DNA from: Pedobacter boryungensis
GTDB taxonomy: Bacteria > Bacteroidota > Bacteroidia > Sphingobacteriales > Sphingobacteriaceae
Direction of reading: 5' to 3'
NCBI RefSeq assembly: GCF_013204825.1
Contig: NZ_JABMKV010000001.1
Coordinates: forward strand, 434,001 to 498,000
DNA: 64,000 nucleotides
Shown: positions 14,241 through 30,155 of the stretch, in pieces
Numbering within the stretch: the first letter of the stretch is position 1
How the letters are laid out: the number at the start of each line of letters is the position of its first letter
Notes under the pieces: generated by a model
Told to the model about the DNA's origin: nothing
Databases searched by the model: none
What the model saw: the letters and a program-made list of their open reading frames with translations, nothing else
Made by a program: the position numbers and the translations under genes

Positions 14241-14345
14241 CGTCATTTCGCCCTTGTGGAGAAATCTTTCTACTAATTAAAATTACATCGAGTACGAGGC
14301 ACCTTAAGGATCTCTCCGTTACGCTGCGCTCCAGTCGAGATGACA
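14241..14345. repeat. Dispersed intergenic palindromic element
   Basis: Ends GTCATTTCG (14242-14250) and CGAGATGAC (14336-14344) are inverted repeats with one wobble. The right part carries GGAGAGA-type and GCGCAGCG-type sequence that recurs in the opposite orientation at 26019-26054. It separates the convergent hydrolase and purM genes. Confidence 0.75.
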
Positions 14346-14351
14346 ATTTGT

Positions 14352-15539
14352 TTAATTATAAACAAATTCTCCAAACTCACTCGTTAATGTAACTTGTTTT
14401 TGGTTTCCTTTTTCTACTCGACCAATTATCTGCGCATCAATATTAAAGCTTTTAGAGATTGCAATAATATCATCAGCAATTGCTTGAGGAATATAAATCT
14501 CCATTCTATGCCCCATATTAAATACTTTGTACATTTCTTTCCAGTCGGTGCCAGATTGTTCCTGTATCAATTTAAATAAAGGTGGAATAGGGAATAGGTT
14601 GTCTTTAATTACATGAACATCATTATTAATGAAATGCAATACTTTGGTTTGTGCACCACCACTGCAATGAACTAAACCATGAATATCTTTGCGATATGCA
14701 TCTAAAATCTTTTTAATCACCGGAGCGTAAGTGCGTGTAGGAGAGAGCACTAATTTTCCAATCGTTATGCTTAGCGAAGTCGAAGCATCTATTTCAATTG
14801 TATCTGTTAATCGCTTACCCCCAGAAAAAACCAAATCTAAAGGTACAGCTGGATCAAAACTTTCAGGGTACTTATTCGCAATAGATTTTTCAAATACATC
14901 GTGACGAGCGGATGTTAATCCGTTAGAGCCCATTCCTCCATTGTATTCAGTTTCATAAGTTGATTGACCATATGAAGCTAAACCAACAATTACATTACCA
15001 TCTTGAATAGTATGGTTACTGATAATTTCCTCCCGCTTAATACGACAAGTAACGGTAGAATCAACAATAATAGTTCTTACTAAATCACCAACATCAGCAG
15101 TTTCTCCGCCAGTAGAAAAAATGGAAATTCCTAAAGCTCTTAAATCTGCTAAAATTTCTTCAGTGCCATTAATAATTGCTGCAATAACTTCCCCAGGAAT
15201 AAGGTTTTTATTACGTCCAATGGTTGAGGATAATAGGATGTTTTCGGTAGCACCAACACAAATTAAATCATCTAAATTCATGATAATTGCATCTTGAGCT
15301 ATGCCTTTCCAAACCGAAATATCACCAGTTTCTTTCCAATAGGTATAAGCTAAGGAAGATTTGGTTCCAGCGCCATCGGCATGCATAATGTTGCAGTAGG
15401 TTTCATCATTTCCTAAAATATCTGGAATAATTTTACAAAATGCTTGTGGGAAAATACCTTTATCAATGTTTTTGATAGCAGCATGAACATCTTCTTTTGA
15501 TGCAGAAACACCACGCTGGTTATACCTGTTATCGCTCAT
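14352..15539 (-). CDS. purM: Phosphoribosylformylglycinamidine cyclo-ligase (AIR synthase)
   Basis: PurM closes the imidazole ring of AIR in purine synthesis, using ATP. The AIRS N-terminal part has HADGAGTKSS and DAIIMNLDDLICVGA; the C-terminal part has LVLSPTRTYAPVIKK, GLVHCSGG and FNMGHRMEI. At 395 residues it is the Bacteroidota-type long form. The stretch DASTSLSIT (encoded around 14763-14790) matches the coding of an intergenic-repeat-like palindrome and looks like an in-frame insertion just before IGKLVLSPTRTY. The reading frame is otherwise intact, so the protein is probably functional. The start codon is only 8 bases after a perfect -7 box. Confidence 0.93.
   Translation of the reverse strand: MSDNRYNQRGVSASKEDVHAAIKNIDKGIFPQAFCKIIPDILGNDETYCNIMHADGAGTKSSLAYTYWKETGDISVWKGIAQDAIIMNLDDLICVGATENILLSSTIGRNKNLIPGEVIAAIINGTEEILADLRALGISIFSTGGETADVGDLVRTIIVDSTVTCRIKREEIISNHTIQDGNVIVGLASYGQSTYETEYNGGMGSNGLTSARHDVFEKSIANKYPESFDPAVPLDLVFSGGKRLTDTIEIDASTSLSITIGKLVLSPTRTYAPVIKKILDAYRKDIHGLVHCSGGAQTKVLHFINNDVHVIKDNLFPIPPLFKLIQEQSGTDWKEMYKVFNMGHRMEIYIPQAIADDIIAISKSFNIDAQIIGRVEKGNQKQVTLTSEFGEFVYN
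14767..14788. repeat. Repeat-like palindrome inside purM
   Basis: A 22-base segment with ends ATGCTT and AAGCAT that, on the coding strand, contains CTTCGACTTCGCTAAGCAT. This looks like the CTTCGACTTCGCT arm of dispersed intergenic repeats. It keeps the purM frame open. Confidence 0.6.
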
Positions 15540-25997: not shown

Positions 25998-26055
25998 TCG
26001 TCATCTCATTGTTTTCCCGTCATCTCGACTGCAGCGCAGCGAAATGGAGAGACCT
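25998..26055. repeat. Dispersed intergenic repeat element
   Basis: It has CGTCATCTC twice (25999 and 26018). The part 26019-26054 is, in reverse orientation, the same sequence as the right end of the element at 14241-14345, sharing GTCATCTCGACTG, AGCGCAGCG and GGAGAGA blocks. The rest of the 217-base gap to 26210 shows no feature. Confidence 0.75.
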
Positions 26056-26209
26056 TTTACAAATGGTTTCTTTTTAGCAAACTTCCTTGCGTTAAATTAG
26101 AATTGCTGAATTCGCTTTTCTATCTATAAATTTGATCGATGAAACATCAAAGCATACAGCAATGTTATGTTCATGTTAGTTTCATCTCATTAAAACAAAC
26201 GATATATTG

Positions 26210-28572: not shown

Positions 28573-29211
28573 TTATACCACAATCACCTTACCCAAGTAC
28601 TGGCTATCAGATTGAGAGCTACGGTCGGCAGCAACAAAACCTATATACACATGAACTGCTACACTTGAAAAATCAGAATCCAGTTGGAGCTTTAATTCTC
28701 CATCCCTTCTAAAGGCACCGTTAAATATCCTTTTAATCGTATTTCCTTTTAAAGGATCATAAACCAATACCATCAGTTGATCTGACTCATGTTCGTAACC
28801 TACATCAGTGATGTCCCAGGTAATACGCATTTCTAAACCACTACATACTACAGCAGGATTTATAGCCTGGGGCAATGTGCCACCACTTATTTTAAATAGG
28901 GCAGGGTCGATATGGAAATTCCCATCAGCATCAATAGCCAAAGCTTCTCTTCTGGTATGGGCCAAGGCCGCACGAAAGCCTCCTGTTTTGGTGTAATAAT
29001 TAGCAAAGCCAACTTGTACTAAATCTTTTAACGGCTTGAGATAGGCTTGCACCATTGCCATTTTCTGCTGGTTGATGAGTTCGTTAGAGGTGAAGTGTGT
29101 TCTCTTTTTAGGCACCGACCTGATCAGACAGTCCCCATCCCTGATCACACCTACCACTGTGCCCACCTTGCCAGAAAAGCCGCCCAAAATCCCGTTAATT
29201 AACCTTGCCAT
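28573..29211 (-). CDS. DUF6266 family protein
   Basis: A 212-residue protein of the DUF6266 family, recognised by the N-terminus MARLINGILGGFSGKVGTVVG with the following RSVPKKRTHFTSNELINQQKM. Such proteins are frequent, often multi-copy, in Sphingobacteriaceae, and their function is unknown. There is no signal peptide. The gene looks richer in G and C than its neighbours. It has one of the best promoters in the window and a repeat array about 100 bases upstream. Confidence 0.85.
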   Translation of the reverse strand: MARLINGILGGFSGKVGTVVGVIRDGDCLIRSVPKKRTHFTSNELINQQKMAMVQAYLKPLKDLVQVGFANYYTKTGGFRAALAHTRREALAIDADGNFHIDPALFKISGGTLPQAINPAVVCSGLEMRITWDITDVGYEHESDQLMVLVYDPLKGNTIKRIFNGAFRRDGELKLQLDSDFSSVAVHVYIGFVAADRSSQSDSQYLGKVIVV

Positions 29212-29227
29212 ATTGTTTCGTTTTGAC

Positions 29228-29259
29228 CAAATGTAGATGATGCATCTCGCTAATCCAAA
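29228..29259 (-). promoter_or_regulatory. Promoter of the DUF6266 gene
   Basis: On the minus strand TTTG (29259-29256), a 20-base spacer and TACATTTG (29235-29228) match both boxes of the Bacteroidota consensus. Confidence 0.7.
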
Positions 29260-29291
29260 TCAGGAAAAGTTATAAAATGTTAATAATTAGA

Positions 29292-29390
29292 TGTTTACAC
29301 GTATATAATTAGGTGAACGATATAGTTCGCACCCTGTTATCACCTTGTTTGCACCCTGTGAACTCCCTGTTAAAATTAGATGTGTAAACA
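29292..29390. repeat. Four 11-bp direct repeats inside an inverted repeat
   Basis: Four contiguous 11-bp units start at 29330, 29341, 29352 and 29363: CACCCTGTTAT, CACCTTGTTTG, CACCCTGTGAA and CTCCCTGTTAA. They are flanked by TGTTTACACGT (29292-29302) and ATGTGTAAACA (29380-29390), which are inverted copies with one wobble. The array lies between the rnhA stop and the DUF6266 promoter. An 11-bp period is close to one helical turn, so stacked protein binding on one face is plausible. Confidence 0.75.
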
Positions 29391-29441
29391 ACTAAACCAC
29401 TCCAAAAGAAGGTCGAATTATTTTTAAGGAAAGATTTTGGA

Positions 29442-30080: not shown

Positions 30081-30155
30081 GGTGGCTGTAGCTCAGTTGG
30101 TTAGAGTATTGGTTTGTGGTGCCGAGGGTCGTGGGTTCGAGCCCCATCAGCCACC
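30081..30155 (+). tRNA. tRNA-His (GTG)
   Basis: The cloverleaf folds: acceptor GTGGCTG with CAGCCAC, a D-arm GCTC...GAGT, an anticodon stem with loop TTGTGGT (anticodon GTG), and a T-arm GTGGG-TTCGAGC-CCCAT. The extra G at 30081 opposite C at 30155 is the G-1:C73 identity pair of tRNA-His. The 3' CCA is not fully encoded (CC then T). Confidence 0.95.

Follow-up and report, generated by a model that had tools for sequence, protein, structure and literature searches.

Arrays of 11-bp direct repeats upstream of DUF6266 genes and at scattered sites in Pedobacter: candidate binding sites of DUF6266 proteins

Direct-repeat arrays with an 11-bp period were found upstream, and in no case downstream, of DUF6266 genes, and also at scattered places in the same genomes, where their units resemble those of the array linked to that genome's own DUF6266 gene. 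On balance, and from comparison of the sequences, we favour the explanation that each DUF6266 protein would bind cooperatively to a set of 11-bp iteron arrays of its own, both at its gene and at the scattered sites.

Results

The window analysed here is a stretch of 64,000 nucleotides from Pedobacter boryungensis, in which positions 29330-29373 consist of four 11-bp units that fill exactly 44 bases in the CACCCTGTTAN register and read, in order, CACCCTGTTAT, CACCTTGTTTG, CACCCTGTGAA and CTCCCTGTTAA. On the plus strand they are of the ACCCTGTTAtc type, which is ACAGGGTgatA on the strand of the adjacent DUF6266 gene. Tandem Repeats Finder placed the repeat at 29325-29372, with a period of 11 and 4.4 copies. 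When the intergenic region (29212-29441) was matched against itself, lag 11 scored 16 and no other lag between 6 and 23 exceeded 8, the harmonic 22 excepted. Dinucleotide shuffling of this region never gave a lag-11 score of 16 in 2000 trials, nor a score of 16 at any of the lags 7-21 in 1000. The original prediction had claimed an exact 11-bp period over 44 bases, which the analysis confirmed. With at most one mismatch, the two-unit motif matched three times in the 64-kb window, always within the array, against 0.04 matches expected.

An inverted unit, AGGTGAAC, is located at 29311-29318 on the minus strand, on the gene-proximal side and head-to-head with the array, and orthologues are arranged similarly. 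The array is also enclosed, as had been predicted, by an inverted repeat, whose 19-nt arms (29287-29305 and 29377-29395) are 84% complementary and separated by 71 nt. The right arm is conserved at locus L143 and largely so at L115; the 19-nt inverted repeat as such was confined to the window DUF6266 gene and its orthologues.

Between array and gene lies the likely DUF6266 promoter, TTTG-N20-TACATTTG, of the Bacteroidetes type, which occupies 29228-29259 on the minus strand (TTTG at 29259-29256, TACATTTG at 29235-29228). It was assigned by the Bacteroidetes consensus of TTTG, about 20 bp and TAnnTTTG. The TACATTTG element is also present in L143 and L115, and TAnnTTTG precedes 33 of 131 DUF6266 genes, an enrichment over the 5.9% seen in shuffled sequence. 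Read from the window sequence, promoter and array are 65 bp apart, which fits the 70 bases proposed earlier. Since the promoter sits between the array and the gene, the array is probably outside the DUF6266 transcript, and a role as part of that transcript is disfavoured.

This arrangement also counts against the view that the arrays act as RNA, either as a periodic hairpin or as an antitoxin-like repeat RNA bound by DUF6266, which we consider very improbable. The period equals the 11 bp of an A-form turn, and the plus strand folds better than its shuffles (z -3.35). However, on the gene strand the advantage over shuffles is slight (z -1.51), mismatches between the arms show no consistent G-T excess (41 vs. 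23 in one set and 83 vs. 120 in the other), and the array stays below the gathering score of every Rfam family. An RNA stem was accordingly rejected, given the inconsistent G-T bias and a dyad symmetry above the 95% null level in just 19 of 64 arrays from the Pedobacter family. The one feature of the window that reached an Rfam gathering score was a tRNA gene (RF00005) at 30082-30155 on the plus strand, shortly past the RNase HI gene.

The DUF6266 gene itself (28573-29211, minus strand) encodes a 212-residue protein, the proposed array-binding protein, with a basic N-terminal domain (residues 1-110) and a fibronectin-III domain (residues 111-212), and it matches the DUF6266 profile PF19781 with an E-value of 2e-27 and 96.5 bits (curated cut-off, 23.4). 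Genes for RNase HI, FBPase and a Kelch-repeat protein and one ORF without a Pfam match are its neighbours in the window. In parC of plasmid R1, clusters of 11-bp iterons surround the promoter of the linked operon and are bound by ParR. The window array is similar to parC in that 11-bp iterons are clustered near the promoter of a linked gene. It differs from type II (parMRC) partition in that neither ParM nor ParR genes were recognised near it, by ORF list and Pfam, and in that the arrays are scattered on the chromosome.

In the 3.5-Mb P. boryungensis genome, the motif ACCYTGTNNNNACCYTGT had 20 matches at seven places, while its reversed control had none. These genome-wide counts, together with the shuffles, ruled out a chance tandem repeat. 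The copy on contig C5 belongs to a duplicated segment of some 400 bp (80% identity), which includes a broken DUF6266 start with two stops; the other five genomic copies have only the array region in common with the window copy. A palindrome, TTAACTATNAGTTAA, occurs seven times in the genome, five of them at most 70 bp from an ACCYTGT array; at four of the seven arrays it stands on one side or both. As for its remaining copies, one has a GGTCGGGG array nearby and the other is flanked by genes that are presumably hisD-like and hisG-like. Another repeat, TCATCTCGACTGCAGCGCAGCGAAATGGAGAGA, about 45 bp long and likewise dispersed, is present at 26017-26064 and 14304-14352 of the window and in many copies at L113, directly adjoining the C5 array copy.

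The genome encodes further DUF6266 proteins. Upstream of the second gene, the units read GGGGTTTGGTC; the unit GGTCGGGGTTT, which adjoins this gene, was found at ten places in the genome, two of them contig ends, with 19 matches vs. one in the control. The third gene (L051) has two 2-unit arrays only.

To place these observations in the family, 399 genomes were searched. A three-unit pattern was found in 16 of them, belonging to four of the 25 genera, and the control gave a single match in all. By tblastn with the window protein, 16 genomes were assigned to a close DUF6266 group (at least 46% identity and at least 196 bits), the cut being placed at a visible gap after the scores had been viewed. 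Twelve genomes had both the close gene and arrays, four the gene only, four arrays only and 379 neither. Arrays were thus present in 12 of the 16 genomes with a close DUF6266 gene vs. 4 of the 383 without (Fisher P = 1e-16, species relatedness not being modelled).

In all 12 genomes with both, one array is situated 95-129 bp upstream of DUF6266, and the gene strand reads ACAGGGT in 11 of these linked arrays, G215 being the exception. The four gene-only genomes have 11-bp arrays upstream of the gene too, with altered units such as TAACTATATGC. The four genomes with arrays and no close DUF6266 relative (G394, G229, G204 and G078) count against DUF6266 as the binder. No DUF6266 gene at all was detected in G394, and none lies beside the fetched arrays of G394, G229, G204 and G025. 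Arrays were also found in G035.

The surroundings of 64 arrays were analysed, comprising the window and 63 loci with up to 8 kb per side among the matches listed, to which G283, G078 and G035 did not contribute. Eleven of the 64, each from a different genome, have the start of a DUF6266 gene at a distance of 95-129 bp, and the coordinates add G283 as a twelfth. When the ORFs around the 64 arrays were clustered, DUF6266 was the sole gene recurring close to the array, and other conserved neighbours were discarded as partners on that basis. SusC/SusD, response-regulator-domain and large paralogous clusters were also detected, at varied distances, and no DNA-binding regulator gene recurred close beside these arrays. 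All but one of the 64 (63/64) are intergenic.

Genes flanking the 64 arrays were arranged in tandem at 36, divergently at 20 and convergently at 8. Such mixed orientations argue against a plain promoter regulon, which was rejected as the arrays hold no fixed place before genes, and speak for docking or marking sites. They likewise weaken the alternative in which another regulator family, such as the OmpR/PhoB type, is encoded elsewhere and uses the arrays as its operators, with DUF6266 as one target and the promoters near the scattered arrays as others; in our judgement this is rather unlikely. According to the available text of PMC4832192, PhoP sites consist of a 7-bp motif with a 4-bp spacer, and tri- and tetra-repeats are bound better. 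The arrays described here have this same 7+4 geometry, with ACCYTGT 7-bp cores directly repeated every 11 bp across a 4-bp spacer, and the window array is just upstream of a promoter. Nevertheless, no response regulator is linked to the arrays, no DNA-binding regulator gene recurs near them, and the DUF6266 model contains neither a winged-helix nor a receiver domain. Moreover, the units change from gene to gene, and because the DUF6266 genes of a single genome differ in this respect, a separate regulator would be needed for each paralogue.

DUF6266 was detected in 75 of 99 genomes of the genus, with up to 28 genes counted per genome. Copy numbers of 25-28 or more were seen in G014, G338, G405, G442, G443 and G449, some copies being close neighbours, and many of the sampled copies had no upstream array. 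In an array-blind sample of 74 DUF6266 genes, picked by profile score and scored for self-match of at least 12 within 500 bp upstream, lag 11 qualified in 29, lag 10 in 11 and none of the remaining lags between 7 and 21 in more than four. The corresponding control, upstream regions of other ORFs at the same loci, gave 10 of 131, and some of these ORFs may lie on the other side of the same array. Within 400 bp, a lag-11 score of at least 12 was reached upstream of 64 of 126 DUF6266 genes and downstream of none (0/126), in a set that includes array-selected genes. Arrays lay a median of 119 bp from the start codon. Outside the family, 12 of 24 DUF6266 genes with a placeable start have an array, the 24 being derived from 28 loci after two in-family loci and two without a clear start were removed. 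In roughly half of the DUF6266 genes no array could be detected, which weighs against the explanation we favour. A 10-bp period was observed upstream of DUF6266 at L231, L319 and L329, with lag-10 scores of 24, 18 and 27, respectively.

The objection that such an array might occur at no other DUF6266 gene therefore fails, since other DUF6266 genes carry arrays, among them 29 of the 74 chosen blind to arrays; in addition, the orthologous array is kept in two other Pedobacter species. The iteron-like reading of the original prediction is partly supported, in that arrays recur at other DUF6266 genes. The prediction missed the copies in trans, the variation of units by gene and the limited occurrence of the flanking inverted repeat.

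Unit sequences vary between DUF6266 genes, including genes within one genome. Two further unit types, GGTCGGGGTTT and TTACCY, are each located beside their own DUF6266 gene and each scattered too; TTACCY arrays were found in 18 of 99 genomes (control, 0) and, by coordinates, beside DUF6266 in eight. Across 68 genes, similarity of units tracked similarity of proteins (r = 0.53), a correlation that could reflect co-inheritance of neighbouring DNA. A stronger sign came from matching in trans: scattered arrays were closer to the gene-linked array of their own genome than to those of other genomes, a result reached in 0 of 20000 permutations over 11 genomes. After the divergent G215 was omitted and one of four related species kept, the match persisted (P = 1e-4). 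The effect is modest, as only 4 of the 11 genomes rank first individually.

Orthologous arrays keep their position, while their unit number shifts by exact 11-bp steps and single units change. Compared with G360, three of the seven P. boryungensis loci had an orthologous array among those fetched, which indicates both retention and turnover. An empty-site comparison at L154 recovered the flanks in 12 of 12 genomes, with an intergenic part that could not be aligned.

These patterns are relevant to the proposal that DUF6266 or an unknown enzyme spreads the arrays as non-autonomous mobile or foldback elements, similar to REP/RAYT, which seems improbable to us. It would account for their multi-copy, intergenic (63/64) and patchy (16/399 genomes) occurrence, for the approximately 92 bp that array copies have in common, for the duplicated C5 copy with its broken DUF6266 start (80% identity over about 400 bp), and for near-perfect palindromic copies in Prolixibacteraceae (L395 and L436). 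On the other hand, DUF6266 has no conserved catalytic residues, arrays are missing downstream of the gene (0/126), and many copies are orthologous across species, so that any movement must be slow.

In the available text of PMC2817692, REP/RAYT is described as dispersed intergenic repeats with an adjacent protein gene whose presence goes with that of the repeats. The arrays share the dispersed intergenic location, the gene adjoining the same repeat and the joint change of repeats and gene, and gene presence correlates with the cognate repeats, as given by the 12/4/4/379 distribution and its P of 1e-16, which does not model species relatedness. Nevertheless, DUF6266 is not a Y1/HUH tyrosine transposase, with neither an HUH nor a tyrosine motif conserved among 68 proteins. 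The units are direct and 11 bp long, whereas REPs are palindromes of 20-40 bp; DUF6266 arrays are one-sided (64/126 upstream, 0/126 downstream), whereas inverted REP copies stand on both sides; and about 1-10 places per genome are occupied here vs. over 100. Because the system has no transposase, no palindromic repeat and no flanking copies on both sides, we did not file it under REP/RAYT.

Beyond the family, a collection-wide scan detected ACCYTGT arrays mainly in Pedobacter and Bacteroidales-type genomes (80 loci listed of 113 stretches), and single matches in unrelated phyla were among the loci listed. At least nine ACCYTGT arrays among them belong to UBA6029 of the Prolixibacteraceae, with no DUF6266 gene within the stretches examined, which also counts against DUF6266 as the binder. 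L395 and L436, from UBA6029 and UBA10471, are the near-perfect palindromes mentioned above, with arms of 66-67 nt, five 11-bp units in forward and about five in inverted orientation, and longer flanking inverted repeats. The stretches examined around these two loci also contained no DUF6266 gene, and the palindromes may represent recently made copies of a foldback-like element, or else sites of another protein.

The AlphaFold2 model of DUF6266, built from 68 sequences, had a pLDDT of 94.9. Residues 111-212 are predicted to adopt a fibronectin-III fold (VIA Z 11.4, 2.0 Å over 91 residues, with 5mya_A), to which the sequence gave a weak match (E 0.096); fibronectin III domains are usually extracellular, a point against the favoured explanation. 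Residues 1-110, modelled alone with a pLDDT of 89.2, gave no PDB match of note (Foldseek E 0.32 and VIA Z 2.8 at best), and the absence of a recognisable DNA-binding fold from the model speaks against DUF6266 as the binder. The N-terminal 95 residues have a mean net charge of +9.7, positive in 127 of 127 proteins, while the remainder averages -3.9. No conserved catalytic residues were found among the 68 aligned proteins, in all of which M1, G7, G111, W132 and R168 are invariant. Helix 2 (residues 76-86) was the segment that tracked the unit, weakly so (r = 0.23 vs. a permutation maximum of 0.184). No tblastn match to the window protein was obtained in 50,697 phage and 72,556 plasmid records. 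PHROGs and NCBIfam gave just scattered, weak single-member matches, and a viral structure library gave only fibronectin-like and other weak ones.

Discussion

The pattern of the arrays calls for a recogniser that is encoded with DUF6266 or is DUF6266, the latter being the simplest case. According to the mechanism we favour, DUF6266 protomers, probably via their basic N-terminal domain, would line up head to tail along one face of the DNA, each occupying the 7-bp core of a unit, with the 4-bp spacers between cores giving the 11-bp period, much like PhoP on its 7+4 repeats (PMC4832192). An array just upstream of the DUF6266 promoter would allow the gene to sense its own product, that is, to be autoregulated, and the scattered arrays may serve as extra docking sites that direct the protein to fixed chromosomal positions.

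Open-licence PubMed Central literature contained no mention of DUF6266 or PF19781 and nothing relevant on 11-bp repeats in Bacteroidetes or on intergenic repeats in Pedobacter. Short intergenic direct repeats scattered through the genome, formed by the heptamer TAACTGA, are described for Beggiatoaceae and also for five Bacteroidetes in the available text of PMC4679880. The arrays resemble them in these respects, but the TAACTGA 7-mers lie close to start codons and, as far as that text goes, have no linked protein family; it mentions neither 11-bp repeats nor Pedobacter.

As a wider and tentative proposal, which we regard as possible rather than probable, DUF6266 proteins and their arrays may constitute paired DNA address systems throughout the phylum. 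DUF6266 would then be a new kind of DNA-binding protein, in which fibronectin III is joined to a basic domain of no known fold, each paralogue having a private 11-bp code that marks several chromosomal sites, with independent codes in one genome and with code and protein diversifying together.

A gene family with up to 28 or more copies per genome would thereby gain its first testable function, and the dispersed repeats of Bacteroidota a candidate partner. Should every paralogue prove to read an 11-bp code of its own, the 68 natural protein-unit pairs would be a data set for a new recognition code, and the scattered sites would map the places at which the protein acts.
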